This document shows, one piece after another, positions 10,893 to 64,000 of a stretch of DNA of 64,000 bases (position 1 is the first letter of the stretch; each line of letters begins with the position of its first letter). A program made the position numbers and the translations under genes. The stretch is taken from assembly GCA_035771175.1 (NCBI GenBank), contig CM069608.1:10388019-10452018 (forward strand), written 5' to 3'. The notes under the pieces are model-generated. The model saw only the letters and a list, made by a program, of their open reading frames with translations, had not been told where the DNA came from and ran no database searches. This DNA is from Paratinospora sagittata (taxonomy: Eukaryota; Streptophyta; Magnoliopsida; Ranunculales; Menispermaceae).

Positions 10893-10912
10893 ATCTCCCC
10901 AACTTAAGGAAT
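10893..10912 (-). promoter_or_regulatory. Element 1 polypurine tract
   Basis: On the minus strand the bases just inside the 3' LTR read CTTAAGTTGGGGAGAT, a purine-rich plus-strand primer site. The same sequence is found next to the element 2 LTR at 36740-36755. Confidence 0.75.
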
Positions 10913-10939
10913 TTCGTCCTCGAAATATAAGAGATAAGG

Positions 10940-11585
10940 AGAAATGTACCTCACGTGGTAAAGAGATCAGGAAATATCTCCCTCATCCAGTCCTCACGTT
11001 CCCAAGTCTGCTCCTCATTATCATGAACTGCCATTTGACTCTGACCAAAGGAATTGCTTTATTTCGCAATTGTTGAACCTTCCTATCAAGAATCTGAATG
11101 GGTTTCTCTTCATATGTAGCATCCTCCCCAACTTGTAACTGTGTTACATCTAAAAGATGTGTCGAGGGTGGATACTTCGTCGGGTCTGTATGGTATTTTC
11201 TCAACATAGAAATATGAAACACGTCATGAACACCGACTAACAGAGGAGACAAAGCAATCTGGTATGCTAACGAACCAATCCTCTCTATGATTTTAAACGG
11301 TCCAATAAAGCGAGGAGACAATTTTCCTTTCACCCCAAACCGCATCTGACCTTTCCGTGGCGAGACTTTAAGCAGCACGAGGTCATCTACTACAAACTCT
11401 AGAGGTCTGTGGCGGTTATCAAAATAACTCTTCTGTTGGTCTTGGGCAGCTTTCAGTCTCTGTCTGATATGTTTAACCTGCTCAGTGTGATCAATAACAA
11501 CTTTCGGTCCCAACAACTGTGATTGTCCTGCCTCATACCAGCAAGTCGGAGATCTGCATGGCCTACCATACAACGCTTCATAAGG
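10940..11585 (-). pseudogene. Element 1 integrase C-terminus and chromodomain-like tail
   Basis: The minus frame gives APYEALYGRPCRSPTCW, the GPKVV...QRLKAAQDQQKSYFDNR stretch, LSPRFIGPFKIIERIG (GPY/F module) and VFHISMLRKY, all standard for chromovirus integrases. VRVKWQ should continue into a chromodomain-type tail. That tail (HDNEEQTWEREDWMRE) is present but in a neighbouring frame, so there is a frameshift near 11030. Upstream it is separated from the integrase core by the solo LTR at 11591-13722. Confidence 0.88.
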
Positions 11586-11590
11586 TGCCA
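11586..11590. repeat. Target duplication TGCCA of the nested solo LTR (left)
   Basis: TGCCA lies directly before TGTAACACC at 11591 and again at 13723-13727 after GTCGTGACA. Removing the LTR and one copy rejoins the integrase frame as QASIGMAPYEALYG. Confidence 0.92.
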
Positions 11591-13722
11591 TGTAACACCC
11601 CGTAAATTTAATTAAATGCATACATTAACGTACACGTATATCGAGATATAGAATACACGTATTTTATACGTAGGAACTAAATATACGTGTGTATGATTAG
11701 TAAATAAATGTATTAAATGAAGATGATACATATGGGATCATCTTATGTGGGTGCTTACAAGTTAAAAATTGGAGTTGAATTATGTGGATTGAGTGTATAG
11801 AAGAAGAAGAGGAACAAAAATATTTACTGCTCATTTGCGCGTATTGTTCACCGAACAGTACCGTGAACAGTACGCAGAAGAAGAAAAAAAATAAAATAAA
11901 ATAAAACACTATTCATAAGCGGGTACTATTCACATAACAGTACCATGAACAGTACTTGCATGTAATAAATAAATAAAAACTAACGCAGTTGCAGAAAGAG
12001 GCAGAGAAAAGAAGGAGAAGAAGAAAAAGGGGAAACGTGGGATTCGCGCGAAATTCAGACCTGCGGTAAGTGATTTTCACTCTATTTCTTTGTGAAATTA
12101 CTATCTAAGTTAGATGGAACGATTCTAGCGGACTAATTTTAGCTATGGGAGCCGTTTTACGGCGTTTTGACAAATTGGGGATTTTGACCCAATGTGAATG
12201 AAAATCCGCTAGAAAGGTAGAAAAATATTTCTTATACGGTCGGGACCCCGAATATGTGGTTAGATTCCATTTTAGGAGTTTTGGAGACCGTTTGACAATT
12301 TTAATACAATTTACATGTTTTGAATGAATAGTACAATAAACAGTGATATGAATAGTGAACAGTGAACAGTAAATAGTAAATAGTAAATAGTGATGTGAAC
12401 AGCGATGTGAACACTGATGTGCATCCAATGAAACTCCGGTTTGAGATCATAGAATCGTAGATAACTGAATTTCAGACGTTTCGATGCTAAGATTGTGATT
12501 TTTGGATATGATTTGATAGTTTTAGTAACTAAGTATATGGTGTCGTGAAAATATGATTTGGAAATCTATTTTCACTGTTCTTTCTTGTGAAAAATATCTA
12601 GATTGACTATAGAAACGAGATAATAGTTTCTTCAATTGCTTATGAGTCCTACATGGATTTATTATTCGTGATTTGACGTGAGTTAAGACACTAAAGATGT
12701 ACATAGATATGAATACATGAAATTGAATTATGGAGTGATTGTGACAGGTTAAATTAGTTGGATTTAACTTGGAGCTGGACACGAAAGCGACGATGATTGG
12801 GTTTAAGTTGAGCGTGTTGTACAGTGAGTATAGTTTTCTTGATTTGGTTCTTGTATGACATTGTACGAATATAAAATGTTTGATTGTATGCATGTTATAT
12901 TTATATATAATGCATTGAGTTTTATGGATCATGCAAACTGATTTTAGCACTTGGAGTTTGTAATGATGAGGTTTTGCGAGTCCTCATTGTCAGTAGGTCT
13001 GTCCTAACAAGGGTTGGGATCCTTGAAATGACTGTGACTTGGGTAATGAGAGGTTGGGGCTACCTTGTAACGGCCATACAAGGGTTAGACCTGCTCTCTT
13101 GCCTTGCGGATGAGGGAGATTGTGCATTGTGTTATTGAAAATCATGCAATTTATGTTGTTGACATGTACAATATATTCGTTGAATGATGCATGTGTTGAA
13201 TAAGTGTTTGAACTGATTTTAAATGTCATATTTCTCTAAATGTATATAATTGTCATCTCAAGAACTATATTCACTGAGCTGTTGTTTGCTCACCTCATTT
13301 CCTCCAATATTTCAGGTATTGAGTCGAAGGGAAAAGGAAAATCCGTGAGTGATAATCACGTGAGCCTTCGTCTGGTATGTGTATGTATGCTTGGAGGAAA
13401 TAAATTATATTTTTGTTATTTTGATATGTATACTTATCACACATTATATATATATGTATTATCGTCTAGATGGGATGTGTGGGCATAGATAGCTTAATAT
13501 ATTGGATGATGACATGAAAATGTGATGTGTGAATGACTGGGATGATTATAGATATCTATCTATATTGGATTTGATTTGTGGTAAAAAAAATTTGTACATT
13601 TTGGGAAGGTTTGTGAGAGTACGTGAAGGCTGACAGTGTATTATATACTGTATATGGGTATGTACAGTGTATAGTACGCTGTGCCGGTCATGACGTCAGC
13701 CTACGTCAGGGATGTCGTGACA
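11591..13722 (+). mobile_element. Solo LTR of the same chromovirus family, nested in element 1
   Basis: 2132 bp from TGTAACACCCCG to GGATGTCGTGACA, in the opposite orientation to its host element. The 5-bp duplication TGCCA proves insertion, followed by LTR-LTR recombination that removed the internal region. It carries opposing ACTGTTCA/TGAACAGT words (11836-11960; 12320-12420) and the terminal hairpin with TGACGTCA (13640-13700). Several open stretches on its minus strand (12105-12950) are AT-rich artefacts. Confidence 0.93.
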
Positions 13723-13727
13723 TGCCA

Positions 13728-15159
13728 TACCAATACTGGCTTGATAGCTGTTGTTATAAGCAAATTCACACAATGGTAAACTTTCACTCCAAGTCCCACC
13801 AAACTCTAAAATACACGATCTGAGCATGTCTTCTAGCATCTGAATCACCCTTTCAGTCTGGCCATCAGTCTGAGGATGATATGTTGTACTAAAGCGGAGA
13901 TGAGTACCAAATCGGGCCTGCATGGCCTGCCAAAAGCTCGATGTGAACCGCAGATCTCTATCCGACACAATAGAAACAGGTATACCATGCAACCTGACAA
14001 TCTCCCGCACATACAATCTGCTCAGTCTATCAATCGAGTCTTTGGTGGTCATTGGAAGAAAGTGTGCAGATTTAGTCAATCTGTCAACTATTACCCAGAT
14101 GGCGTCAAATCTACCCTGGGATCTGGGCAGTCCTGTGATAAAGTCCATCGTGATATGCTCCCATTTCCATTCTGGAATAGATAATGGTTGCACCTGACCT
14201 CCTGGTTTTTGATGTTCAGCTTTCACTTGCTGACACACCTCACAATTCCGCACATACTCAGCTATATCTTTCTTCATCCCATGCCACCATACTATTCTCT
14301 TCATATCATGATACATTTTTGTAGATCCTGGGTGAATGATATACTGAGATATGTGTGCTTTCTCTAATATCTCAGCCTTCAATGCCCTATCTACAGGTAC
14401 CCATAATCTCCCCTGATAACGCAGGACACCATCTGGACCTCTCTGCCAATCAGCCCTGTCTGCACTATCTGCCCAAGACTCATACATACCAAGATCAGGA
14501 TAATGCTGTTGCATATCCTTAATCTTTTGAATAGACAAATCTGTCACCTGTATATGCATCTGAGCACGAATGTCAACGTGTGGAGCCATGGAAAGAACAC
14601 TCATCATAGTCGCTCTCTCTAAAAGTCGCCACTCCTGAGCCATCTGACAAGCTACCACCTGGGTCTCAACCCGTTTTAGGCTCAATGCATCAGCTACGAC
14701 GTTGGCCTTTCCAGGATGATATTCTAACGTGAAATCATAATCTTTTAGGAATTCCAACCATCTACGCTGTCTCATATTCAACTCTTTCTGGTCAAACAAA
14801 TATTTCAGACTTTTATGGTCTGAGTACAGTGTGAATGTTTCCCCATAGAGGTAATGTCTCCACAATTTCAATGCAAATACAACAGCTGCTAGTTCTAAAT
14901 CATGCACAGGGTAGTTCTTCTCATGTATCTTCAGCTGTCTGGATGCATAAGCAATCACTCTACCCTCTTGCATCAATACACATCCCAAACCTACATGTGA
15001 TGCATCTGTGTAAATCACCAACTCCTTTCCAGGTTCTGGGAGTACTAAAACTGGAGTAGTAGTTAGTTTCTTCTTCAACTCCGTGAAAACATCCTCACAT
15101 GCAGAAGTCCACACAAATGACACATTTTTCTGAGTCAGCCTTGTGAGTGGGGAAGCCAA
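13728..15159 (-). pseudogene. Element 1 RNase H and integrase core
   Basis: Read on the minus strand: the RT/RNase H junction ([20 protein letters not shown]), gypsy RNase H ([30 protein letters not shown], then [13 protein letters not shown]), the integrase HHCC zinc site ([11 protein letters not shown]... NCEVCQQVK) and the DDE core ([43 protein letters not shown]). All catalytic acids are visible. The frame begins right after an in-frame TGA that separates it from RT and ends where the nested solo LTR enters. Confidence 0.93.
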
Positions 15160-15712
15160 TCAGGAAAAGCCTTCCACAAATCTTCGGTAATAACCAGCGA
15201 GACCCAGAAAACTACGGATCTCAGTCACTGTGGTTGGTCTTGACCAATTTATGATTACCTCGACCTTAGCAGAATCAATAGAAATACCTTCTGCACTAAT
15301 CACATGACCTAGAAATCTCACCTCATGTATCCAAAACTCGCATTTACTGAATTTAGCATACAACCGATGCTCTCTCAGTGTTTGTAAAGTGATGCGGAGG
15401 TGTTGCTCATGATCCTCCTGAGTTTTGGAATAAATGAGTATATCATCAATAAACACAATAATGAACTGATCCAGATATGGTCTGAAGACCCTTTGCATCA
15501 AATCCATAAACATGGCTGGGGCATTGGTCAGTCCAAAGGGCATAACAAGAAACTCATACTGACCATACCGTGTTCTAAACGCAGTCTTTGATACATCCTC
15601 TTCCCGTATTCTTAGCTGATGGTATCCAGATCTTAAATCAATCTTAGAGAAAAATTTAGCACCATTCAACTGATCGAATAAATCATCGATACGGGGTAAA
15701 GGATACTTATTT
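15160..15712 (-). pseudogene. Element 1 reverse transcriptase, catalytic part
   Basis: The minus frame contains [31 protein letters not shown], and the catalytic box FIDDILIYS (YxDD variant normal for gypsy), then FLGHVIS and [17 protein letters not shown]. The last is followed by TGA where family members have a sense codon; CGA to TGA by loss of a methylated CpG would explain it. The upstream edge is a frameshift at an A6 run near 15708-15714. Confidence 0.92.
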
Positions 15713-17785
15713 TTTCACTGTCACCCTGTTCAGCTGTCTATAATCAATGCATAACCTCAAGCTGCCATCCTTCTTCTTCACAAACAGGACAGGCGCGCCC
15801 CATGGTGACATACTTGGGGTAATAAACCCTTTTGCCATCAACTCCTCTAATTGCACCTTGAGTTCCTGTAACTCCTTTGGCGCCATTCGATAGGGTGGAA
15901 TTGATATAGGCTTTGTAGCAGGTATCAGTTCAATAATAAAATCAATTTCCCGTACTGGTGGTAATCCTGGTAAATCCTCTGGAAAAACATCTGCGTACTC
16001 ACATACTGTAGGAATATCTGCTATCTGAACGCCTAAGTCCTTTTCATTTACTGGCTTTATACTAGCCAACATCCCTATCTCTGCATTAGTGGTCATCCTG
16101 CCTCGAGTGGGAGAGTTTAAAGACGTCTTGCCACTATAAATAAATGCGGGTTGTCCTGGTATTTGAAAGACTACTTTCTTATCAAAGCAGTCCACATGGG
16201 CATGATAGGCAGCCAACCAATCCATACCCAGTATAGCATCGAATTCCAGGAATTCTAAAACCCTAAGATTCACAATCATTTCATGATACGCATATTTGAC
16301 CACACACTTTTCACACAACATATTTGGGTAGATTCGGTCTCCTGCTGCAGTACTCAGAACCAACGGTGTACTAATCCTAACAGGAGTTAAATGCAACCTA
16401 TCTACCATGTGGCCAACAATAAATGACAAGGTGGATCCAGCATCAATTAACACATACATCATAGTGTCGCAAATAGAAAGCATACCTTCCACCAAGTTCT
16501 TGTTCGCATCTGGATCTGGCTCTGTAACAGCCCTGGCTTGCTCTCTGACAGGCGCGGGAATAGTAACAGTAGCAGATGGATTTGTTGGAGTCCGCGGGGC
16601 TGGCTGAAAAGGACACTGGTACGCTTTATGTCCCTTGTTCCCACATCGATAACATGTGAAAAGAGGGCGATATGCAGATGAAGCTGTCTGCGACGCAGTG
16701 CCTGACATGGAACACCAACCACTCTGACTGTCTGTTCCCCTATGCGGCCAAGGTGCCCGAACCGACGATCCCTGTGTCAGTGGCCTTGTAACAGATTGTG
16801 ATATTATGCCTGTCGGTGGTGGTAGCGTTGCTGCTGGAGGAGTAACTAGAATTTCCATAGTAGTAGGCCTCTCAACTATCTTTGCCTTTTTCTGTTCACC
16901 CCACCATTTTCTGTCCCATCTTTGCTTTCTCGGACCCTGATAGGGTACCTGCTGCTCTATAACTGCCTGTGATGTGGGCGTTGCCCGTGCTGGCCTATCT
17001 GTCATCTCCGCTGTCTCATACTCCAGTGCCTGTCGCACTGCCTGATCATAGGTCTGAACACCAGCAAGAGTTAAACCTTTATTGATTGGGTCATTAAATC
17101 CTTCCCTGAGCCTCTTCATTCGCATCAGATCTGTTTGAACCATCTCAGGGGCAAACAAGGCTAGCCTATTGAACTCATATTCATATTCTCTCACAGACAT
17201 GTTCCCTTGCTTCAATTCTATAAATTGCTTATGCCTTTTATCAACCTCAGACGGGGGATAGTAAGTCTTGTAAAATACTTCTTTAAACTTATCCCAGGTA
17301 TCTATGGGTCCCTGAGCTCGGCCTATTGTCTGCCACCATCTCTCAACCTTACTCGAAAATTTAAATCGAGCAAGTCTAATCTTGTCCCTATCCAGTGCAT
17401 GCATGTCCTCAAATATAACTTCTATCCTCAGAAGCCAATCCTCAGCAACCTCTAACTCCAGACTGCCATCAAATATAGGCGGTTCACGTCTCTTAAATGC
17501 TTTCATCACATCTTCGTATCTGCGAGTCTCATCTATATCATCATGAGTCTCTAATGTCTCCTGCACTGGCACAGGTCGCTCTGCATACGCACCCGCACTA
17601 CTGGCACCAACCTCAGGTACTACAGGTACTGGAGGCCCCTGTAAATTATCCTGAAGACGTGTCATCATACGCATCATCTCAGCATTTTGTCTCTGCTGAG
17701 CTATAACCATTTCTTCCAGTTTCGTTAACTTTTCTTCTTGTGGATCCATGATTGCCTGATACTTCCCTTTCAATCTGCCATTCAC
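15707..17785 (-). pseudogene. Element 1 gag-protease and start of RT
   Basis: An open frame of 692 codons; the second Met (MDPQEEKL, residue 13) is the more usual gag start. The retrotransposon gag domain is at about residues 100-260 ([39 protein letters not shown]). The CCHC zinc knuckle [14 protein letters not shown] is at 378-391. The protease active site reads DAGST at 448-452, where DTG or DSG is usual. RT begins with [11 protein letters not shown] (677-687). The frame ends because one extra A shifts it. Without that indel it would run into the RT segment at 15160-15712. Confidence 0.92.
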
Positions 17786-17920
17786 AGAGATAAAGGAGCA
17801 TATAAGTCAGACAATCCAATTACTCAATCTTTATAGATACGTGATTTACCCGTACATAAACCCATAAAACAAACATAAGATACTAAAGCTTTTAATCTTT
17901 TAGGCTTTTAATCCTAAACG

Positions 17921-17934
17921 TGGCTCTGATACCA
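17921..17934 (-). promoter_or_regulatory. Element 1 primer-binding site (initiator tRNA-Met)
   Basis: The reverse complement reads TGGTATCAGAGCCA, complementary to the 3' end of plant initiator tRNA-Met. It lies 4 nt inside the 5' LTR end at 17939. Confidence 0.9.
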
Positions 17935-17938
17935 ATAT

Positions 17939-19156
17939 TGTCACGACGCCCCTGACGTAGGCTGACGTCATGACCGGCACAGTGTACTATACACTGTACA
18001 TACCCATATACAGTATACAATACACTGTCAGCCTTCATGTAGTCTCACAATAATTCCCAAAAGTTACATCAATTTTTTTTTCTAATATACCACAGATCAA
18101 ATCCAATATAGATCTCTATAATCTTTCCATTCATTCCACAAATTAAAGTCTCATCTGATAAATATCTATTATCATCTCATTTCATCATCCCTAGCATTAT
18201 ATAATATTACCACACAACTCATCTAGGTGATATTACATATATATAGTGTGTGATAATTATACATATCAAAATAACAAAAATATAATCTATTTCCTCCAAG
18301 CATACATATACATACCAGACGAAGGTTCACGTGATTATCACTCACAGATTTTTCCTTTTCCCTTCGACTCAATACCTGAAATATTGGAGGAAATAGGGTG
18401 AGCAAACAACAACTCAGTGAATATAGTTCTTGAGATGGCAATTATATACATTTAGAGAAATATGACATTTGAAATCGTTTCAAACACTTATTCAACACAC
18501 GCATCATTCAACGAATATATTATACATGTCAACAACATAAATTGCATGAGTTTTCAATAACACAATGCACAATCTCCCTCCTCCGCAAGGCAAGAGAGCG
18601 GGTCTAACCCTTGTATGGCCGTTGCAAGGTAGCCACAGCCTCTCATTACCCAATTCACAGTCATTTCAAGGATCGCAACCCTTGTTAGGATAGACTTACT
18701 GACAATGAGGACTCGCAAAACCTCATCCGAGTCTAATTCCTAACGAAATGACATCATTACAAACTCCAATTGCTAAAATCAGTTTGCATGCTCCATAAAA
18801 CTCAATGCATTATATATAAATATAACCTGCATACAATCAAACATTTTATATGCGTACAATGTCATATAATAACCAAATCAAGAAAACTATACTCACAATG
18901 GTTACACGGGGTTTCTAAGCCAACCTCTAAAATCGAGCAACAATAAACGTCATTGCTTCCTCAAGAGCGTTTATCCATGCCCTTAAGCTCTCAATTTAAA
19001 CACTGAAATTAACCATAGATTATCATGAGAATCGTCATTTATCATATCGATAGCTACTAAAAATATCAAATCATATCCAAAAATCATGATCTTAGTATCG
19101 AAACGTCCAGAATTCAGTTCTCTACGAATCTATGATTTCAAATCACTGTTCACAAT

Positions 19157-19190
<34 letters not shown>

Positions 19191-20004
19191 TACTATTCAT
19201 CCAAAAGATGTAAATTGTATTAAAATTGTCAAACGGTCTCCAAAAATCATGAAATGGAATCTAACCACATATTCGGGGTCCCGACAGTCCAGAGAGCGTT
19301 TTTCTACCTTTCTAGCGGATTTTCATTCACGTTGGGTCAAAACCCCAATTTTTGAAAACGCAGTAAAACGGCTCCCACAACAAAAATTACTCCGCTAGAA
19401 TTGTTACATCTAGCTTAGAGATCAATTTCACGAAGAAATAGAGTAGAAATCGCTTACCACAAGTCCCGATTTCGCATGAATTTCGCGTTCTCTCTTCCGT
19501 TCTTCTTCTTTCCTTCTTTCGTCTGTTCGTTCCTCTTTCCTCTCTTTCATTTGCAACTCCTTTCATCTCTCTTCTTTTATTTTTACACGTTTTCTATTCT
19601 TTTTTTTTTTTTTTTATGTTAACGAATGAGAGATTGAGATGAGAAAGGAGAGAGTAGATATTTTATATCAAAATGATCCAATACCCCTCATGCTCAATAA
19701 TTAACCAACTCACCCCATAAATTAATCACTTTAATTCATTAAACCATTTATCATCAACTCAATTCACTTATTTCACATGTATTCATATACACACATGTAT
19801 TACATCATACTATGTATTAAGTCATTAAATCATACTCCAATCCACATATTTAATAATTTTATTTATTTACTAATACCCCTTAAATTCAGTATGTATTTTC
19901 ATACACAGGTATATTTAGCTCATACGTATAAAATACGTGTATTATACATCTCGATATACGCGTACTTCAACGTATGTATTTAATTAAGATTACAGGGTGT
20001 TACA
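17939..20004 (-). repeat. Element 1, 5' LTR
   Basis: 2066 bp, TGTCACGACGCC to AGGGTGTTACA on the plus strand. It is alignable end to end with 8851-10892 but has many scattered substitutions and an expanded CTATTCA array at 19150-19200. Confidence 0.9.
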
Positions 20005-34437: not shown

Positions 34438-34598
34438 AAACATCCAAGCCCGTCATTTTTTAAGGAGGTTGGGGAGAAGATGTTTATTATCCAGTTTAGT
34501 AATACCGTAGATTGTAAAAGGGTGTTAGAACGAGAACCGTGGCATTTTGATAAAACTCTTGTGGTACTAGTAGAGGTAGATGGGTTGAAGAAACCCTC
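34438..34598 (+). pseudogene. LINE 1 ORF1, DUF4283 N-terminal part
   Basis: The frame reads FFKEVGEKMFIIQFSNTVDC, then RVLEREPWHFDKTLVVLVEV: the DUF4283 fold typical of plant LINE ORF1 proteins (nucleic-acid binding). It stops being LINE at the CCCTC duplication, where element 2 enters. The frame resumes exactly at 43376 (ETKMIWTKFWIHIYDLPIAY). Confidence 0.88.
34594..34598. repeat. Target duplication CCCTC of element 2 (left)
   Basis: CCCTC precedes the LTR start at 34599 and follows the other LTR at 43371-43375. Deleting the element with one copy rejoins the LINE 1 frame (GLKKPSETKMIW). Confidence 0.95.
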
Positions 34599-36739
34599 TG
34601 TCACGACGCCCCTGACGTAGGCTGACGTCATGACCGGCACAGCGTACTATACACTGTACATCCTCATATACAGTGTATAATACACTGTCAGCCTTCACGT
34701 ACTCTCACAAACCTTCCCAAATTGTACAGAATATATTTTTTTTTTTTCTATACCACACATCAAATCAAATCCCATATATATAGATGATTATTCCATTCAC
34801 AGTGATTCCATTCATTCCACAAATTAAATTCTCACCAGATAAATATCTATGATCATCTCATTTCATCATCTCAAGCATTATATAATCTTACCACACAACC
34901 CATCTAGGTGATAGTACATATATATAGTGTGTGATAATTATACATATCAAAATAACGTAAATAGAATTTATTTCCTCCAAACAGACATACACATACCAGA
35001 CAAGTTCCTTTTCTCTTCGACTCAATACCTGAAAGATTGGAGGAAATGGGGTGAGCAAACAACAGCTCAGTGAATATAGTTCTTGAGATGGCAATTATAT
35101 ACATTTAAAGAAATATGACATTTAAACTCATACATTTATTCAACACATGCATCGTTCAACGAATATATCATACATGTCAACAACATAAATTTCATGCTTT
35201 TCAATAATATAATGCACAATTTCCCTCATCCGCAAGGCAAGAGAGCGGGTCTAACCTTGTATGGTCGTACAAGGTAGACACAGCCTCTCATTACCCAATT
35301 TCAAAACACAATGCACAATCTCCCTCCTCCGCAAGGCAAGAGAGCGGGTCTAACCCTTGTATGGCCGTTACAAGGTAGCCACAACTTCTCATTACCCAAT
35401 TCACAGTCATTTCAAGGATCGCAACCCTTGTTAGGACAAACCTAACGAAATGACAATGAGGAATCGCAAAGCCTCATCATTACAACCTCTAATGCTAAAA
35501 TCAGTTTGCATGATCCATAAACTCAATGCAGTATATATAAATCTAACATGCATACCATCAACCATTTTATATACGTACAATGCCATACAAGAACCAAATC
35601 AAGAAAACTATACTCACAGTACAACACGTTCCACTTAAACCCAATCATCGTCGCTTTCGAGTCCAGCTCCAAGTTAAATCCAATTAATTTAACCTGTCAC
35701 AATCACTCCATAATTTAATTGCATGTCTTCATATTTATGTACATCTTTAATTTCTCAACTCACTTCAAATCACTACTAATAAATCCATTTAGGACTCAAA
35801 AGCAGTTATCTCGTTTCTATAAACTCAAACCGGGGTTTCATTGGGTTCACATCACTGGTCACATCACTGTGCACAGTACGATTCACATCACTGATCAATG
35901 TCACTATTTACTATTCACTGTACACTATTCACTGTACACTATTTACTATTTTACTGTGCACTATTCACTATTCATCACTATTCATCCGACAGATGTAAAT
36001 TGTATTAAAATTGTCCGACGGTCTCCAAACCTCCTGAAATCAAATCTAACCACATATTCAGAGTCTCTATAGTCCAAGAAGTGTTTTTCTATCTTCCTAG
36101 CGAATTTCTCATTCACATTGGGGTCAAAACCCCAATTTGTCAAAATACCGTAAAACGGCTCCTACAGTCAAAATTAGGCCGCTAGAACGGTTACCGCTAG
36201 CTTAGATAGTAATTTCACGAAGAAAGGGAGTGAAAATTGCTTACCGTGAGTCCGGATTTCACCCGAATCCCGCTTTCTCCCTTTTCTCTCTTCTCCTTCT
36301 TCTCTCGGTTCTTCTGGACGTTTCTCTCTGTTTTTCATTCAGCAATCGGTTTTGTTTTATTTTATTATTATTTTTTTTTTTCTTAATGAACAGTAACTTA
36401 CTATTCACTACTATTCGTGATACTATTTGATGAACAGTATCTTACTATGCAAGTACTGTTCATTATATCTTTTTATTTGTTTTTCGTCGTACCCTCAATC
36501 ACATACACGTATTTTGACTCCTACGTATAAAATACGTGTCTTATCAAATGTATAGTTAGCTCTTACATATAAAATACGTGTATTATCACGCATATATGTA
36601 GCTCATACGTATAAAATACGTATATTATCAAATGTATATTGAGCTCCAATGTATAAAATACGTGTATTAGCAAACGTATATGGAGCTCTTATGTATAATA
36701 TATGTGTACGTCATTTACTTAAATTTACGGGGTGTTACA
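34599..36739 (-). repeat. Element 2, 3' LTR
   Basis: 2141 bp, TGTCACGACGCCCC to ACGGGGTGTTACA on the plus strand. By eye only about three substitutions separate it from the other LTR (for example near 35491, 35965 and 36593), plus length changes in the CACTATTCA array (35905-35995), a partial internal duplication and T-runs. It contains a partly duplicated segment at 35215-35400 (CGCAAGGCAAGAGAGCGGGT twice). Confidence 0.94.
36522..36731. repeat. 42-bp tandem array at the LTR edge, five units
   Basis: Units start at 36522, 36564, 36606, 36648 and 36690, exactly 42 bp apart. Each carries the quasi-palindrome TACGTATAAAATACGTG or a close variant followed by TATTATCAAATGTATA-type sequence and GAGCTC. 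Element 1 LTRs have only one such unit. The same array is at 43153-43362 in the other LTR. Confidence 0.92.
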
Positions 36740-36755
36740 ATCTCCCCAACTTAAG

Positions 36756-37565
36756 GAATTTCGTCCTCAAAATTTAGAAAGGACGATTCCTCACGTGATA
36801 CTCAATCCCAGAAAACTACTCCCGCATTTTATATTCCGCTTCCATGTTTGCTCTTCTTGATACGTGGTATCCTCCCCAACTTAGAGTTGAGTTATATCCA
36901 TAATATATATGGAATCCGAAGGATATGTCCTTAACATCAATATCTAGAATTTATTCCTGATACTTATCAACAGTGACAGTAGAGCAAATCGGTAAGCCAA
37001 TGGACCTATCCTACCAAGGATCTCTAATGGTCCAACAAAGCGCGGTGTGAGCTTTCTTTTTCATCCCAAATTTCATTTGGCCTTTTTGTAGTAAGACCCT
37101 TAGCAAAACTGAGTCAGCCATAATAAATTTCAAGGCCTATAAGGCTTATGATCAAGTGCCATCGTTATGCTATTATCATAGTTGCTTATACACATAAGGT
37201 TACACACATAAAGTCTTCCTTCCAATGTTCACCAAAATTCAAGCATACCAGACCCGAGCATGCTCGCAAGCATCAAAATCATTCTCTCAGTCTGTCAGCC
37301 AGTCTGATGATGAAATGATGTACTAAAACGGAGATGAGTACCAACTCGGGCCTGCATGGCCTTCCAAAAGCTCGATGTGAACCGCGGATCTCTATCCGAC
37401 ACAATAGAAACAGGTATACCCTGCAACCTGACAATCTCCCGCATATAGAGTCTGCTCAGCTTGCCCATAGAATCCCTAGTGTTCACCGGTCGAAAGTGAG
37501 CGGACTTGGTCAAGCGATCAATAATAACCCAAACAGCATTATGTCTCCTCGGGAAGGAACGTACT
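36756..37565 (-). pseudogene. Element 2 integrase remnants
   Basis: 37280-37565 encodes on the minus strand [60 protein letters not shown] and LRFSTSFHHQTG: the middle of a gypsy integrase core, with the second catalytic Asp. 36756-37270 is a degraded C-terminal part (KGQMKFGMKK-type text around 37055-37095). Compared with element 1 the start of the core, the zinc finger and everything upstream to gag are missing. Confidence 0.85.
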
Positions 37566-37655
37566 GATAAACTGTTCAAAAGTCCTGATAAACTGTTCAA
37601 ACATACTGATAAACTGTTCAAAAGTACTGATAAACTGTTCCAAAAATACTGATAG
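37562..37655. repeat. 21-bp tandem array flanking the captured gene
   Basis: CTGATAAACTGTTC begins at 37564, 37585, 37606 and 37627, then a partial at 37649. A lone related TGATAAACTGTTAA is found at 37987-38000, right at the end of the RWP-RK coding region. Confidence 0.92.
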
Positions 37656-37997
37656 GAATAGGCCCTTTTTCTAAAGGAAAATGGAGAATTTCATTCGGTC
37701 TAATGTTAATTTAAGACAAACTGTTATCAGTTGCTCCACATCATAAACTTAAGTCCCCTACTTTTAATTTAGGTATAGAAGTGTAGTAACACATTGATCG
37801 TCTGACATGATATGAAACCTTCATGATTGGCCATCATTTTAGGGTTTAGGGGACTTGATAAATTTAGTTACTCTAGCATCTACTCATAAAACAGCTTAAT
37901 CAGTATCTCTTAAGACCAATGATCACAAGATCTTAAGTTGACACTTTATTCAACCAAGTTTGTGAAAATCACTACTCACTTCATACATGATAAACTG
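37656..37997. other. 3' flank of the captured RWP-RK gene
   Basis: Non-coding, AT-rich, with no similarity to the pol region expected here. It is probably the transduced gene's 3' UTR and downstream DNA. An AAACTTAAGTCCCCTA / AGGGGACTTGATAAATT inverted pair lies at 37746-37865. Confidence 0.5.
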
Positions 37998-39401
37998 TTA
38001 ATTTAAACGAGAAATAGCAACTGGGTGCCACTCTAGTGTCATGTCCTTTCTTTTCTTGCCGTTGGTTTCCTTTCTTTTCATGCAGTTGGCCTTGAACCAA
38101 GCCTGCCTTAGTTTCTTTGTTTTCTCCTGAAGATCCACCTCTGGCATCTCTTCCATCAACTTCCTTTCTTCTTCCAATAAACTCAAAGCATCTTTTATCT
38201 TCATATCTCCACCAAGCCTTTCTCCTTCCCCCATTTCCTGCAGTACATAATTAATTAACAAGTAATTATCTTTATCAGAACATCCCCAAGTTGAGATATC
38301 AAAATACTTATACAGATCAATATATAATGGTGATAAATACCTCAACATTTGCCATAACGGTCTGCAAGGTCATCACCTTTCTCTGAGTCCATTTCCTTTG
38401 TTCCTTCAATAAACTCAACCTGTCTCTTATCTTCATATCTCTACTAACCCCTTCTCCTTCCCCCATTTCCTGCAGTGCATTTCTGTGACGCCATTTCCTT
38501 TGTTCCTCCAAGAACCTCAACGCTTCTCTTATCTTCATATCTCCACAAACACCTTCTCCTTCCACCAATTCCTGAACATTTTTTATAACGACCTGCAAGC
38601 TCATAAGCTTTCTGTAAGGCCATCTAGGGATGCCCAATTCCCTGCACCTCCTCTTCAGCTGCGTTAAGCCCACCTTAAGTTCTTTTGCAGCGTCTGATAT
38701 GCTCATGTAGAAGTAGCGTGAGAGGTTCGTGCGTGATAGAGTCTTCACCCTCTTCAGTTTCGTCATCGATTCCTCATGATCACTACCAGTACTACTTATA
38801 CTCCTACTGCAGCAGCTAATCATCCCCTCTTCCTTTTCATTCATCCCAATTTGTTGTTTCTTCCCTTCTAATCCAATTCTCATTTGATTCAAACCTCCAA
38901 AGTCCACATGATTAGTACCAGTACTACTCATCCCCTCTCCATTTTCATGCATCACAATCTGTTGTTCCTCCGCTTCTAATTCCAATAGCAAATTAATCAA
39001 CACAACGAGGATGAAATTGCCAATCTGTTAATAATAAAGTATAATCTAAAGTGGATTGAGCATTGATACTCACCTTCAAGTTCATTAAGTTGGCTTGGAA
39101 AGTCATCTTCATCCATTGAAGAATTCATGAAGGGTGGTACCACTGCCTCGTGTAAGCCATATTCTAGAAGAGGCTCCCACGTATACGGGCTGCTACCAAA
39201 ACTTGAACAGCTGAAATCAAGTGGGTGGAATTGGTTTGAGAAGAGAAATGGGTCTTCTCCAATATCCACCATGTCTCTGTTAGGCCATGGTGGAGGGCTG
39301 GTAATGCAGTAAGAAATGTCGGGCAGCTGCTCCTTCGTCGGATGTGGCTGCAACTCATCCTGTTTTGGCGCCGGAGCTGCTCCTCCTTCTCCTCCTGCCA
39401 T
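37998..39401 (-). CDS. RKD: RKD-type RWP-RK transcription factor carried inside a retrotransposon
   Basis: Minus strand, three exons: 39074-39401, 38341-38975 and 37998-38237. Introns are 98 and 103 nt with GTGAGT..TTAG and GTATTT..TGCAG ends, phases 1 and 0. The joined frame is 400 codons without a stop. Residues ~188-245 form the RWP-RK DNA-binding domain (YFYMSISDAAKELKVGLTQL, KRRCRELGIPRWPYRKLMSL, QVVIKNVQE); RWPYRK is at 227-232. RKD proteins control egg-cell and embryo programmes in known plants. The N-terminus is acidic/Pro-rich. After the domain come three copies of an EGEG--DMKIREAL-LEEQRK unit (about 246-270, 280-306, 322-348) and a basic tail (KRKETNGKKRKD). The protein is longer than typical RKDs because of these repeats. 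Everything lies between gag and integrase remnants of element 2, in the same orientation. Confidence 0.85.
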
Positions 39402-39562
39402 AATATTTCTTTTCTTCTTTCTCTCTTCCTTTCCTATCTTCTCCTTTTAATGCCCAGAAAATCTCAGCCTCCAACAAACTCAATCACCAACTCCACCACC
39501 CCCAGAAAACCAGACTAGCAGTAGTATAACTCACATAAACGAACTGACAAGCGTGTTGAACA
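39402..39562 (-). promoter_or_regulatory. Upstream flank of the captured RWP-RK gene
   Basis: On the minus strand this is a purine-rich leader (GAAGAGAGAAAGAAGAAAAG just before the ATG) preceded by CATTAAAAGGAG, a possible weak TATA. Only about 160 bp separate the start codon from the 58-bp repeats, so little if any native promoter travelled along. Transcription may come from the 5' LTR. Confidence 0.4.
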
Positions 39563-39740
39563 ACCGACAAGCATGCGGCTGAACAGGAGAGCGTGCGGCT
39601 CAAGAATGGCGTGCGATGAAACCGACAAGCAGGTGGCTGAACAGGAGAGCGTGCGGCTCAAGAATGGCGTGCGATGAAACCGACAAGCATGCGGCTGAAC
39701 AGGAGAGCGTGCGGCTCAAAAATGGCGTGCGATGAACAGG
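39563..39740. repeat. 58-bp tandem array, three units
   Basis: ACCGACAAGC starts at 39563, 39621 and 39679. Each unit continues with GGCTGAACAGGAGAGCGTGC and GGCTCAAGAATGGCGTGCGA. It lies between the RWP-RK gene and the gag fragment. Confidence 0.93.
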
Positions 39741-39783
39741 CTGACTGCAGGAGTGCAGATGCATAGGAACTCCGACAGGCTTG

Positions 39784-40139
39784 CTAACCAATAGTAACTC
39801 CGACTCCAAAGTCAACAAGTGCTGGCTGCAGGTGCCTCCGGCGTGCTGGAGCTGCCCGTGTAGACATACCATCAACCCGCTCAGCCAACTTGTATTGTTT
39901 GGCCCTCTGGACCACTGTGGCAAAATCAGTCGCAGGCCTTAGGTTCAAAGAGAACCTCATAATCTTGTCACTCGGCGTCTGAACTAACCCAAGGGCATAA
40001 ACTGCGAGTTGCCTAAACCTGAGCTCGTACTCCCTAACTGACATGGTGCCCTGTGCGAGATTCAAAAACTCGAGTTGCTTAGCCTGTCTCTCAGTCTCTG
40101 GAACGTAAGCCTGTAAGAACAACCGTTTGAAGGTGTCCC
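39784..40139 (-). pseudogene. Element 2 gag fragment
   Basis: The minus frame gives AYVPETERQAKQLEFLNLAQ, GTMSVREYELRFRQLAVYAL and MRFSLNLRPATDFATVVQRA: the retrotransposon gag domain (capsid). It differs clearly from gag of element 1 (which has [20 protein letters not shown]), so element 2 derives from a distinct lineage that shares LTR ends. The zinc knuckle and protease are absent. Confidence 0.88.
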
Positions 40140-41170
40140 AACTCTTCCTTACATTACTTTATTCCTCCTTTTACCTAACACTGGTGTTGATAATTCAACT
40201 TCTAACGACAGTGCAAGCTATCGCACGAATATTGCTTGGATTAACAATTTCACCACAGCTTTGGCTATCCCAAAATTTATAGGTTGCCTACCACAATTTA
40301 TTCTAGATCCTTATCCTTCTCAGAATATCCATTCCAAAAATAAACTATACCAGTCTATTTAATTCATGTTTGTATTTCTGGTTAGGCATGTCACTACATT
40401 GTAACAAGATAAACTTTTTCATGCCTTAAATCAATTTCAGCATGATGATAGAAGCCCTTATAAATAGCTTCTTTAATTAATCTCATGCCTTAATCATCTC
40501 AGAGTCCTTAACCCAATTTTCTATTATCTCTTATCATCAGTTAACTTTAACTTAGCTAACTTGCTTTATCATTTTCAGAGACTGAATCCTTCTTTAAGAT
40601 GGTCTCTACTCAGAGTCACAACTTCGTTACTACGTCTACTATTAGATTGCCAGTTATGATAGGAGAGTCTCTTCTCCTGAATGTTTTCATAACTTTCACA
40701 TATCTTTTAATTTCATCTGGCTTATCATTGAGACCTTCTATGTATTTTATTTTTACGTCAGTCTCAACTATATATGTTTTTTTTTTTTTTCAGAAGTACC
40801 CACACCATTAGCATCCACATCTGGAGCTATCAATGGTTCAAGCCTCTGTCTTTCTCACATTGCAATTCCACAAGCTTCATAAGCTGTGTATTTCGTTGTT
40901 GTTGGGTAGTTACTAGCCATATATAAGCTATATAATTTATTCTCACTGGATTACATCCAGTTCTTTTTCTTTCAGCCTTCTGATCCTTTCCTGATCAGCA
41001 ATTTCCATTGTTAATCTTGACTATTCGTTTCCAAATATGAAAACACAAGTGATTCTCAGTCAAGATAACCTATTGGATTAGGTTCCACATAATAGAACTA
41101 CCCATATGTATACCCATACAAGCAATCATAATATCATAAAGCTTTTATCTTTTTAAGAATTTTACACTTA
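40140..41170. other. Element 2 leader, about 1 kb of unknown origin
   Basis: Between primer-binding site and gag, element 1 has ~135 bp but element 2 has ~1 kb. This stretch is AT-rich with no recognised coding sequence. It could be an older gag/leader segment too decayed to recognise or another acquired host fragment. Confidence 0.5.
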
Positions 41171-41184
41171 AGGCTCTGATACCA
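41171..41184 (-). promoter_or_regulatory. Element 2 primer-binding site (initiator tRNA-Met)
   Basis: The reverse complement TGGTATCAGAGCCT lies 4 nt inside the LTR at 41189, the same spacing as in element 1. Confidence 0.9.
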
Positions 41185-41188
41185 ATAT

Positions 41189-43370
41189 TGTCACGACGCC
41201 CCTGACGTAGGCTGACGTCATGACCGGCACAGCGTACTATACACTGTACATCCTCATATACAGTGTATAATACACTGTCAGCCTTCACGTACTCTCACAA
41301 ACCTTCCCAAATTGTACAGAATATATTTTTTTTTTTCTATACCACACATCAAATCAAATCCCATATATATAGATGATTATTCCATTCACAGTGATTCCAT
41401 TCATTCCACAAATTAAATTCTCACCAGATAAATATCTATGATCATCTCATTTCATCATCTCAAGCATTATATAATCTTACCACACAACCCATCTAGGTGA
41501 TAGTACATATATATAGTGTGTGATAATTATACATATCAAAATAACGTAAATAGAATTTATTTCCTCCAAACAGACATACACATACCAGACAAGTTCCTTT
41601 TCTCTTCGACTCAATACCTGAAAGATTGGAGGAAATGGGGTGAGCAAACAACAGCTCAGTGAATATAGTTCTTGAGATGGCAATTATATACATTTAAAGA
41701 AATATGACATTTAAACTCATACATTTATTCAACACATGCATCGTTCAACGAATATATCATACATGTCAACAACATAAATTTCATGCTTTTCAATAATATA
41801 ATGCACAATTTCCCTCATCCGCAAGGCAAGAGAGCGGGTCTAACCTTGTATGGTCGTACAAGGTAGACACAGCCTCTCATTACCCAATTTCAAAACACAA
41901 TGCACAATCTCCCTCCTCCGCAAGGCAAGAGAGCGGGTCTAACCCTTGTATGGCCGTTACAAGGTAGCCACAACTTCTCATTACCCAATTCACAGTCATT
42001 TCAAGGATCGCAACCCTTGTTAGGACAAACCTAACGAAATGACAATGAGGAATCGCAAAGCCTCATCATTACAACCTCCAATGCTAAAATCAGTTTGCAT
42101 GATCCATAAACTCAATGCAGTATATATAAATCTAACATGCATACCATCAACCATTTTATATACGTACAATGCCATACAAGAACCAAATCAAGAAAACTAT
42201 ACTCACAGTACAACACGTTCCACTTAAACCCAATCATCGTCGCTTTCGAGTCCAGCTCCAAGTTAAATCCAATTAATTTAACCTGTCACAATCACTCCAT
42301 AATTTAATTGCATGTCTTCATATTTATGTACATCTTTAATTTCTCAACTCACTTCAAATCACTACTAATAAATCCATTTAGGACTCAAAAGCAGTTATCT
42401 CGTTTCTATAAACTCAAACCGGGGTTTCATTGGGTTCACATCACTGGTCACATCACTGTGCACAGTACGATTCACATCACTGATCAATGTCACTATTTAC
42501 TATTCACTGTACACTATTCACTGTACACTATTCACTGTACACTATTTACTATTTTACTGTGCACTATTTACTATTCATCACTATTCATCCGAAACTATTC
42601 ATCACTATTCATCCGACAGATGTAAATTGTATTAAAATTGTCCGACGGTCTCCAAACCTCCTGAAATCAAATCTAACCACATATTCAGAGTCTCTATAGT
42701 CCAAGAAGTGTTTTTCTATCTTCCTAGCGAATTTCTCATTCACATTGGGGTCAAAACCCCAATTTGTCAAAATACCGTAAAACGGCTCCTACAGTCAAAA
42801 TTAGGCCGCTAGAACGGTTACCGCTAGCTTAGATAGTAATTTCACGAAGAAAGGGAGTGAAAATTGCTTACCGTGAGTCCGGATTTCACCCGAATCCCGC
42901 TTTCTCCCTTTTCTCTCTTCTCCTTCTTCTCTCGGTTCTTCTGGACGTTTCTCTCTGTTTTTCATTCAGCAATCGGTTTTGTTTTATTTTATTATTTTTT
43001 TTTTATTTTTTTCTTAATGAACAGTAACTTACTATTCACTACTATTCGTGATACTATTTGATGAACAGTATCTTACTATGCAAGTACTGTTCATTATATC
43101 TTTTTATTTGTTTTTCGTCGTACCCTCAATCACATACACGTATTTTGACTCCTACGTATAAAATACGTGTCTTATCAAATGTATAGTTAGCTCTTACATA
43201 TAAAATACGTGTATTATCACGCGTATATGTAGCTCATACGTATAAAATACGTATATTATCAAATGTATATTGAGCTCCAATGTATAAAATACGTGTATTA
43301 GCAAACGTATATGGAGCTCTTATGTATAATATATGTGTACGTCATTTACTTAAATTTACGGGGTGTTACA
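41189..43370 (-). repeat. Element 2, 5' LTR
   Basis: 2182 bp, nearly identical to 34599-36739. The length difference comes mostly from extra CACTATTCA / CACTGTACACTATTCA units at 42495-42605. This LTR would drive transcription through gag and the RWP-RK gene. Confidence 0.94.
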
Positions 43371-43375
43371 CCCTC

Positions 43376-61653: not shown

Positions 61654-61869
61654 AGGTGAGGTTTTGGAAGAAAAACAGACTCTCTGTCGAAATTTTTTGA
61701 GACAAAGTCGAAATTTTGAAATTTTGTAAACGTGATCAAAACTGTGTTCTGATCACCCGAGGAGGTAGCTCTTGTTCTCAGGAGTCCAACGCAACAAACG
61801 GCGAGAAAAACGGAGAAGAAACGAGTCCCCAGGAGCCGATCAAAGTTTGAGCCCTGTACCGTATTTGGC

Positions 61870-62290
61870 AGCGCTATTCACACCGGAAACAGCCGTCACT
61901 GTTCATACCGCCGTGACTGTTCATACCGGCCGCACTGTTCCCGGCCCGACACTGTTCACCGGTCCGACACTATTCACCGATCTGTCACTATTCACCGGTC
62001 CGACACTATTCACCAGTCTGTCACTATTCACCAGTCCGACACTATTCACCGGTCCGTCACTATTCACCGGTCCGACACTGTTTACAGGTCCGTACTATTC
62101 ACCTGCCCAGTTCTGTTTCGGCCCAGTCACTGTTCAAAGCCCAGCAACTGTTCAAGGCCCGTCACTGTTCAAAGCCCAACAACTGTTTAAGGTCCGTAAC
62201 TGTTCAAAGCCCGTCACTGTTCAAAGCCCATCAACTGTTCGGCCCGTCACTGTTCACAGCCCAGCTCTGTTTCGGCCCAGTCACTGTTTC
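61870..62290 (+). repeat. CACTATTCACCGGTCCG array in the copia leader
   Basis: Roughly twenty imperfect units of CACTATTCACCGGTCCGA or CACTGTTCAAAGCCCG occupy the untranslated leader between primer site and gag. The core word CACTRTTCA is the same as in the gypsy LTR arrays at 35.9, 42.5 and 19.2 kb. Confidence 0.9.
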
Positions 62291-62422
62291 GGCTTATTTT
62301 TTCGTCTGATTTCAGCAAAGTCAGACTCGTTTCCACCATTTTCAACCGTTCCGGACGCAACCGTGCAATCAGTTTCTGCAGATTCGAAGTACTTTTCGGC
62401 GTCATACATATCTTCGGTCTTA

Positions 62423-64000
62423 ATGGCGGAGGAAATCCCAAGCACAAGCAGGCCTTGGCAAAGAAGTTCGATGTCAAATGCAAAGTTCGAGGTGGAGAAA
62501 TTCAACGGCACCAACAACTTTGGCATGTGGCAATGCGAGGTTCAAGATCTCTTATTCCGAGAAGGCTCACTTATCGCCTTGGAAACCAAGCCCAAGGATA
62601 TGTCCGATGATGATTGGTATTTTGTCAATCGTCAAGCTTGTGGAACAATCAGACTCTGTTTGGCCAAAGATCAGAAGTATTTTATCATGAAAGAGACTAT
62701 GGCAAAAAGTCTTTGGAAGAAACTGGAGGACAAGTACATGACGAAAAGCGTAGAGAACCGCCTCTACCTGAAGAAGAAGCTTTTTTGTTTTAAATACAAG
62801 CAAGGTACTCCCATGATTCAACATCTTGATAATTTCAACAAGATTCTCGCTGATCTACTGAATCTTGATGTTGACCCTCTTGATGAGGATAAGGCACTAT
62901 TGTTGTTAAGCTCTTTGCCTGAAAGTTATGAACATTTAACAACAACTTTGCTATATGGTAAAGATGAGGTTAAATTTAGTGATGTTTCAAATGCTCTGGT
63001 GAACAACGAGTATCGAAAGAAGGACCAGCGCGATCACAATGAAGCATCACCAGCAGCCTTGACGGTATCCAGAGGCAGGGCTAACAACAGATCTGATAGA
63101 TCCAGTGGGCGAGGCCGATCTCGCTCAAAGTCAAAAGGACCTTCATCACGTCAACGTCTTGGAAAGGATGAATGTGCCTATTGTCACCAAAAGGGGCACT
63201 GGAAGAAAGATTGTCCAAATAAGGGCAAGACAGATGCAAATGTAGCACAGAAAGCTGAAGAAGATTCTGCGTTCTCAGTTTCATCTATAGACATTCAGTC
63301 TGATAGATGGATATTAGATTCTGGCTGCTCCTATCATATGTGTCCGAATCGCCATTGGTTCTCAAAATTGGATGAGTTCGATGGAGGGGTCGTGGTCATG
63401 GGCAACAACAATACCTGCCGCACAAAAGGTATCGGAACTATACGCCTTAAGATGCATGACGGTACAACAAGACGGCTCACGGACGTCCGATATGTTCCAG
63501 ATCTGAAGAAAAATCTGATCTCCCTAGGAGTCCTTGATTCCAGCGGTTACAAGGTAACCATTGAAGGTGGAGTCCTAAAGGTTGTACGTGGAGCACTCTT
63601 GGCCATAAAGGGTACTCAGAAAGGAAATCTTTATTTCCTTGACGGACACACAGCAATCGGAAGTGTCTCAGCTTGCACCAGTTCTAGTGATGTTTCATCG
63701 GACACTTCCCGACTTTGGCACATGCGGCTCGGACATGTTGGAGAGAAGTCTCTTCAAGCCTTGATAAAGCAAGGCTCTCTGAAAGGTGCAAAGACCGGGA
63801 AACTTGACTTCTGCGAGCACTGTATCCTAGGCAAGCAGACGAGAGTCAAGTTTGGAACTGCCATCCACCTCACAAAAGGAACATTGGATTATGTTCATAC
63901 CGACGTTTGGGGACCCTCTCAAAATGCTTCATTGGGAGGTAAACGTTGGTTTGTTACTTTTATTGATGATTTCTCTCGTTATGTTTGGGTTTATACCATG
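62423..64000 (+). CDS. Copia gag-pol polyprotein, N-terminal 526 residues, open to the window end
   Basis: The ATG at 62423 opens a frame with no stop through base 64000. Gag (UBN2-type capsid) spans about residues 20-200 (FEVEKFNGTNNFGMWQCEVQ, LWKKLEDKYMTKSVENRLYL). The zinc knuckle CAYCHQKGHWKKDC is at 251-264. The protease active site DSG is at 299-301 (WILDSGCSYHM). The integrase zinc site has H433, H438, C464 and C467 (LWHMRLGHVG, FCEHCILGKQ). The core starts with D494 (HTDVWGPSQ), then FIDDFSRYVWVY. All these residues are conserved, so this copy may be a young or active one. RT and RNase H are beyond the window. Confidence 0.95.
   Translation, partial: MAEEIPSTSRPWQRSSMSNAKFEVEKFNGTNNFGMWQCEVQDLLFREGSLIALETKPKDMSDDDWYFVNRQACGTIRLCLAKDQKYFIMKETMAKSLWKKLEDKYMTKSVENRLYLKKKLFCFKYKQGTPMIQHLDNFNKILADLLNLDVDPLDEDKALLLLSSLPESYEHLTTTLLYGKDEVKFSDVSNALVNNEYRKKDQRDHNEASPAALTVSRGRANNRSDRSSGRGRSRSKSKGPSSRQRLGKDECAYCHQKGHWKKDCPNKGKTDANVAQKAEEDSAFSVSSIDIQSDRWILDSGCSYHMCPNRHWFSKLDEFDGGVVVMGNNNTCRTKGIGTIRLKMHDGTTRRLTDVRYVPDLKKNLISLGVLDSSGYKVTIEGGVLKVVRGALLAIKGTQKGNLYFLDGHTAIGSVSACTSSSDVSSDTSRLWHMRLGHVGEKSLQALIKQGSLKGAKTGKLDFCEHCILGKQTRVKFGTAIHLTKGTLDYVHTDVWGPSQNASLGGKRWFVTFIDDFSRYVWVYTM

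Follow-up and report, generated by a model that had tools for sequence, protein, structure and literature searches.

How does a gene for a reproductive regulator come to lie within a retrotransposon, and in what form is it carried there? RKD genes encode regulators of the egg cell and the embryo, and an RKD gene was predicted inside a young long terminal repeat (LTR) retrotransposon of Paratinospora sagittata (Menispermaceae). We analysed this locus in a stretch of 64,000 nucleotides (contig CM069608.1, positions 10,388,019 to 10,452,018; hereafter the window), in which the element occupies positions 34599-43370 on the minus strand. Judged by its sequence, the gene is a transporter-RKD chimera, with the ATG and about 40 codons representing a transporter exon and the remainder RKD. 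We consider it probable that this chimera of a nucleobase-ascorbate transporter (NAT) and RKD was taken up by LTR elements, was spliced in the element family of the window (family A), was swapped in a block between LTR lineages, and has been riding as a passenger.

The gene and the element that carries it

The original prediction described a 400-codon RWP-RK gene between gag and integrase with two introns and no stop, and this structure was recovered. Three exons on the minus strand (39401-39074, 38975-38341 and 38237-37998) gave 400 codons without a premature stop, the stop codon itself being included in exon 3, and the introns of 98 and 103 bp were both of the GT..AG type. The RWP-RK domain (PF02042) lies in exon 2 at about 38596-38739 and scored 78.1 bits against a cut-off of 29.3; no other Pfam family was found in the protein. 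A database search returned 375 proteins at E ≤0.001, and all of the best 120 carried PF02042, many of them being named RKD. The best relative among the matches listed was from Stephania cephalantha (E 9.3e-46, 35% over 84%), and the C-terminal motif TKxLRQAxFKAN was common to the window protein and its RWP-RK/RKD relatives. A search of solved structures gave a single match that was not meaningful (E 2.9).

The protein was predicted to be a complete-looking RKD, and this part did not hold. When residues 1-41 were searched alone, 214 proteins were matched at E up to 10, with a best E of 4.3e-15; PF00860 was present in 119 of the best 120, the other one having no Pfam call, and many were named nucleobase-ascorbate transporter 6 or 7. 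Because of this match, the ATG and the codons following it (39284-39401) were assigned to exon 1 of such a transporter, while the rest of exon 1 (39074-39283, beginning NRDMVDIGED) is RKD-derived according to the gene model and the comparison of the family. The gene has this transporter exon in place of an N-terminal RKD exon of its own, and the possibility of a complete native RKD gene was rejected on that ground. Alignment with 11 relatives further showed that the core of the RWP-RK domain is kept but is changed at five near-invariant positions (P201S, T203S, H230Y, T238V and L239V), where near-invariant means identical in at least 90% of the 12 rows. Thus domain score and best relatives place the protein with RKD, and these residues depart from it. 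Serine at position 203 also occurs in other copies of the same genome. The window protein in addition has repeated C-terminal units that are not present in the 11 aligned relatives.

The carrier was predicted from near-identical LTRs, a perfect CCCTC duplication and the frame of an interrupted long interspersed nuclear element (LINE), all of which were confirmed. Aligned to each other, the 3' LTR (34599-36739, 2141 bp) and the 5' LTR (41189-43370, 2182 bp), both on the minus strand, differ by 4 substitutions in 2140 aligned sites and by 4 indels covering 43 gap columns, and CCCTC stands on both sides (34594-34598 and 43371-43375). When the flanks were joined without the element, one reading frame ran across the insertion point. 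The left flank piece matched DUF4283 slightly below the curated cut-off (E 1.5e-5, 25.1 against 27.2 bits), and the right piece, in a different frame, matched the zinc knuckle zf-CCHC_4 (29.9 against 27); plant LINEs have domains of this kind. The element is young: an LTR divergence K of 0.0019 corresponds to about 0.07 million years at the rate of 1.3e-8 that PMC10011142 uses for pearl millet, which may not be the rate of this plant.

Inside the LTRs, the features read on the minus strand were a primer-binding site beside the 5' LTR (TGGTATCAGAGCC, 41172-41184), presumably of the tRNA-Met type; a gag fragment (39848-40158, PF03732, E 2.9e-13); the RKD cassette common to other elements (37557-39847, ends set by eye from the alignment with a second element family, B, and with locus L029); an integrase core fragment (37295-37556, PF00665, E 5.2e-4, under the curated cut-off); and a polypurine tract adjoining the 3' LTR (36740-36752). 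The gag fragment, the RWP-RK gene and the integrase fragment are all in sense orientation to the element. In 36740-41188, inspection of open frames and DNA alignment to a gag-pol relative showed no region for protease, reverse transcriptase or RNase H, with no profile scan of the whole interior. The element thus has the LTR pair, target duplication, primer-binding site and polypurine tract of a Ty3-type element without a full gag-pol, and is a non-autonomous derivative that has only gag and integrase fragments.

That gag-pol relative lies in the same window at 8851-20004 on the minus strand, with LTRs at 8851-10892 and 17939-20004 and with gag, protease, RNase H and integrase domains. Its LTR start is about 83% identical to that of the window element, its primer-binding site is the same, the polypurine motif recurs at 10893, and its positions 13797-14097 show 80% DNA identity to the integrase fragment. 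An element of this type is a candidate helper. Within the relative, window 12004-13722 resembles an LTR and lies in the opposite orientation.

Copies, the fused junction and exchange of the block

The assembly (1.29 Gb, 4049 contigs) was searched with the cassette DNA, and 40 of 706 first-look candidates were scored, the window itself included. A one-off insertion was therefore rejected, and the predicted spread of RKD-type loci by a mobile copy was borne out. By hand counts from the search table, the NAT/RKD junction was fused at 28 of the 40 places, 24 of them at 98-100% identity. The other 12 were split exactly at the junction (query 1724/1725), with 144-159 bp between the parts and 96-97% identity.

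The sequence at the junction identified what separates the two forms. The window (39283/39284) and L029 read CCATGGC/CTAACAG, while family B reads CCATGGC/GTCAGT...TTCACAG/CTAACAG, a GT..AG intron; among the 12 split places, L041 alone was read letter by letter, and it has a GT..AG intron of 159 bp at the same point. Since this intron is absent exactly in the window and present in L041 and family B, the comparison points to passage of the cassette through spliced RNA. The proposed comparison of exon and intron structure thus upheld introns 1 and 2 as GT-AG and added a junction intron in other copies that is fused in the window. The gene is not a processed retrogene with no introns left, as one intron was lost exactly and two were kept. 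At a second possible loss (HPLDF/CSSF), the acceptor is less clean.

The search for other copies that the prediction had called for found the same gag-RKD-integrase arrangement at five further places that were read (L029 and L037-L040) and at a sixth, L041, with the intron. L037, on contig C18, has the gag-RKD-integrase-LTR order of the window over the 4.2 kb compared, at 98-100% over the gag side, the cassette, the integrase side and 380 bp of LTR, with mismatches of 0/693 on the gag side, 7/817 on the integrase side and 7/380 in the LTR part. It looks like the same element, so that parts of host genes lie within LTRs and have been copied with the element, as in gene transduction. L038 (LTR part 3/388 mismatches with 75 gap columns, gag side 31/671) and L039 (LTR part 23/415, gag side 3/693) are, on these figures, close relatives. 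L040 is identical to the window on the gag side (0/693) and distant at the LTR start (45/178, 188 gap columns), and L041 runs on into L029-like integrase sequence.

The original prediction had allowed for a mis-assembly, and this is unlikely because the order recurs at L029, L037-L040 and L041. To an artefact of assembly, or a joining of collapsed haplotypes, we give almost no credence: the assembly is indeed in 4049 contigs, but no support for an artefact was found, the same internal order stands at several places on different chromosomes, and the LTRs and target duplication are clean.

L029, on contig C11, indicates how the cassette may have changed carriers. Its two LTRs share 99.7% identity in the 2918 bp compared, and no match of at least 60 bp was found between them and the window LTR, despite the same gag-RKD-integrase block. 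Identity between the two loci, judged by eye, is high from about 40150 to 37460 and falls abruptly outside the block. Recombination during reverse transcription would fit such an exchange.

We then considered whether the cargo is maintained by selection. The chimeric RKD might be useful to the elements, for example through transcription in the egg cell or early embryo, and be kept as an accessory gene. Consistent with this, the frame is open in 5 of the 7 family A copies read (window included) and in all 6 group-B copies modelled (359-361 aa, with 5 other loci that have another exon acceptor left out of the modelling), and the copy number of the cassette is high. The ratio of nonsynonymous to synonymous substitution (dN/dS) was 0.30-0.63 in 17 of 22 pairs (extremes 0.20 and 1.02), values that lean low because most of the loci were picked by domain score. 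However, the copies are young, and open frames are therefore expected without selection. L029 and L040 each carry one premature stop, near-invariant RWP-RK residues are changed in the window, and loci L009-L028 were chosen by domain score. The 21 pairs of the seven family A copies gave ratios of 0.18-1.66 and one infinite value, with 0-7 synonymous changes per pair; among these pairs the window and L041 gave 0.43. The window and L029 gave about 1.0-1.06 on 387-399 codons, though 0.53 on a shorter alignment of 215 codons. Strong purifying selection on the window gene was thus not supported, and we regard an accessory gene kept by selection as quite improbable. A bolder version, in which a germline regulator was domesticated by retrotransposons, with the transporter exon, upstream DNA and RKD forming a self-encoded factor that opens egg or nucellar transcription and an RKD burst that rewired reproduction, is more improbable still. 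Most likely the RKD cargo is simply carried along as a passenger.

Other carriers and the origin of the cassette

A PF02042 profile search of the genome gave 655 first-look candidates, and all 150 that were scored lay above the cut-off. Twenty loci (L009-L028) were chosen by hand from these 150 rows to span score classes, and in 14 of them RKD is joined to the stretch typified by L010, in which integrase through gag are encoded on the strand opposite to RKD. These loci represent family B, a Ty3 family with gag-pol in which the cassette stands antisense between the 5' LTR and gag. In several, the outer ends of the LTRs were seen, with flanks that differ between loci, and a polypurine tract adjoins the 3' LTR; L015 has an open pol frame of 875 residues that is cut by the end of the locus. 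L026 has the L010-type pieces in a different order, L023 has merely 65% similarity, and no L010-type gag-pol similarity was found in L009, L013, L014 and L024. All of the 14 family B loci read are on contigs C1-C17.

RKD is also found in two other settings. Family C is a segment of about 10 kb shared by L009 and L014 at 98.8%, and in most of its length by L013, that holds RKD, a coiled coil and a fragment we assume to be LOG-like; no LTR pair was found when looked for in these three loci. The ends of the segment were not found either, and a break at L009:9927 was rejected as an end, being an LTR-like insertion. The segment is dispersed at L009, L013, L014, L034 and L035 with about 97-99% identity. 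At L033 on contig C18 (2273-5622), an RKD copy lies between 709-bp inverted repeats that are 97% alike. The 3' exon part of L033 is, in several alignment windows, the closest to that of the window after L029 among the nine loci compared.

These settings bear on the possibility that the cassette is a mobile unit in its own right, a DNA transposon or Helitron for which LTR elements are mere landing sites. Both cassette ends are common to families A and B, L033 has its inverted repeats, and family C is a large RKD-bearing segment with no LTR pair found. We nevertheless consider this unlikely. A scan for a target duplication at L033 gave none that was clear; in family A the cassette replaces the sequence from gag to integrase and does not interrupt it; the exact intron loss points to RNA; and the block exchanged between family A carriers takes in gag and integrase.

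We return to capture of the chimera by LTR elements, for which the following course is proposed. A lineage-specific RKD gene gained the first exon of a NAT, a step shown by the sequence of the gene itself. Family B would have taken up the resulting cassette in antisense, between the 5' LTR and gag, and family A in sense, between gag and integrase, with loss of protease, reverse transcriptase and RNase H. In family A, splicing of an RNA intermediate would have removed the NAT/RKD intron. The gag-RKD-integrase block may then have been exchanged among LTR lineages, the most likely route being a switch of template between RNAs packaged together. The window element, which has its own LTRs, primer-binding site and polypurine tract, would be moved in trans by the proteins of an autonomous relative such as 8851-20004.

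Several observations weigh against this course. Introns 1 and 2 are retained, and therefore the RNA passage did not strip all introns. The RKD sequences of family A, family B and L008 look like mosaics of one another. The coding tree joins B with C (support 80) while the derived exon start joins A with B, and because of this disagreement any order of captures is tentative; intron divergence between families was compared on fewer than 180 sites. The selection of L009-L028 by domain score favours intact copies.

Beyond these carriers, 68 of the 150 scored RWP-RK matches lie in four tandem clusters, at C1:3344296-3445000 (26 matches), C14:9294721-9337495 (15), C14:11780125-11840017 (12) and C2386 (15), and 82 lie elsewhere on 20 contigs. 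In the two clusters sampled, the unit measures about 3.1-3.3 kb and includes a stretch rich in repeats. Some RWP-RK loci are paired across chromosomes (L001/L002, L003/L004 and L005/L006, mostly 93-96% identical), as if the assembly held two subgenomes or very different haplotypes. In the window, a Copia-type gag-pol frame at 61769-64000 runs off the end.

Relation to known systems and significance

LTR-element transduction, template switching and antisense extra open reading frames are already known (PMC13317346, PMC7264820). Maize Bs1 is likewise an LTR retrotransposon with a chimeric frame, in which parts of three host genes were transduced (PMC13317346); here the cargo is a transcription factor with a transporter exon, two introns are kept, and carriers of other types in the genome have related cassettes too. 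Grande, RIRE2 and Retand resemble family B in that many copies of the LTR family contain an additional gene in antisense. Their antisense frames lie between pol and the 3' LTR and are described as having no clear similarity to other proteins (PMC7264820), whereas the gene of family B sits before gag and is plainly RKD. The template-switching recombinants of BARE-1/Wis-2 and Veju also hold foreign blocks, that of BARE-2 coming from another element (PMC13317346), but the block exchanged here carries a host gene. In citrus, CitRKD1 with its miniature inverted-repeat transposable element likewise pairs a transposable element with an RWP-RK gene of the RKD type; there the element reportedly controls a resident gene (PMC6090715), and here the element carries the gene. 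In searches of open-access PMC papers, none of the titles and abstract starts listed described a retrotransposon with an RKD gene as cargo. As far as these searches show, the RKD-type cargo, the transporter exon, the several carriers and the paired forms with and without the intron are new.

These findings indicate that a developmental regulator has been copied and spread by mobile DNA. What was a single odd insertion becomes a traceable series of a chimera, several element types, intron-containing and intron-free versions and block exchange, and the course by which retrotransposons capture a gene becomes datable, step by step, within one genome. The plant thus offers a system for asking whether additional mobile RKD copies are expressed in ovules or change how embryos form.

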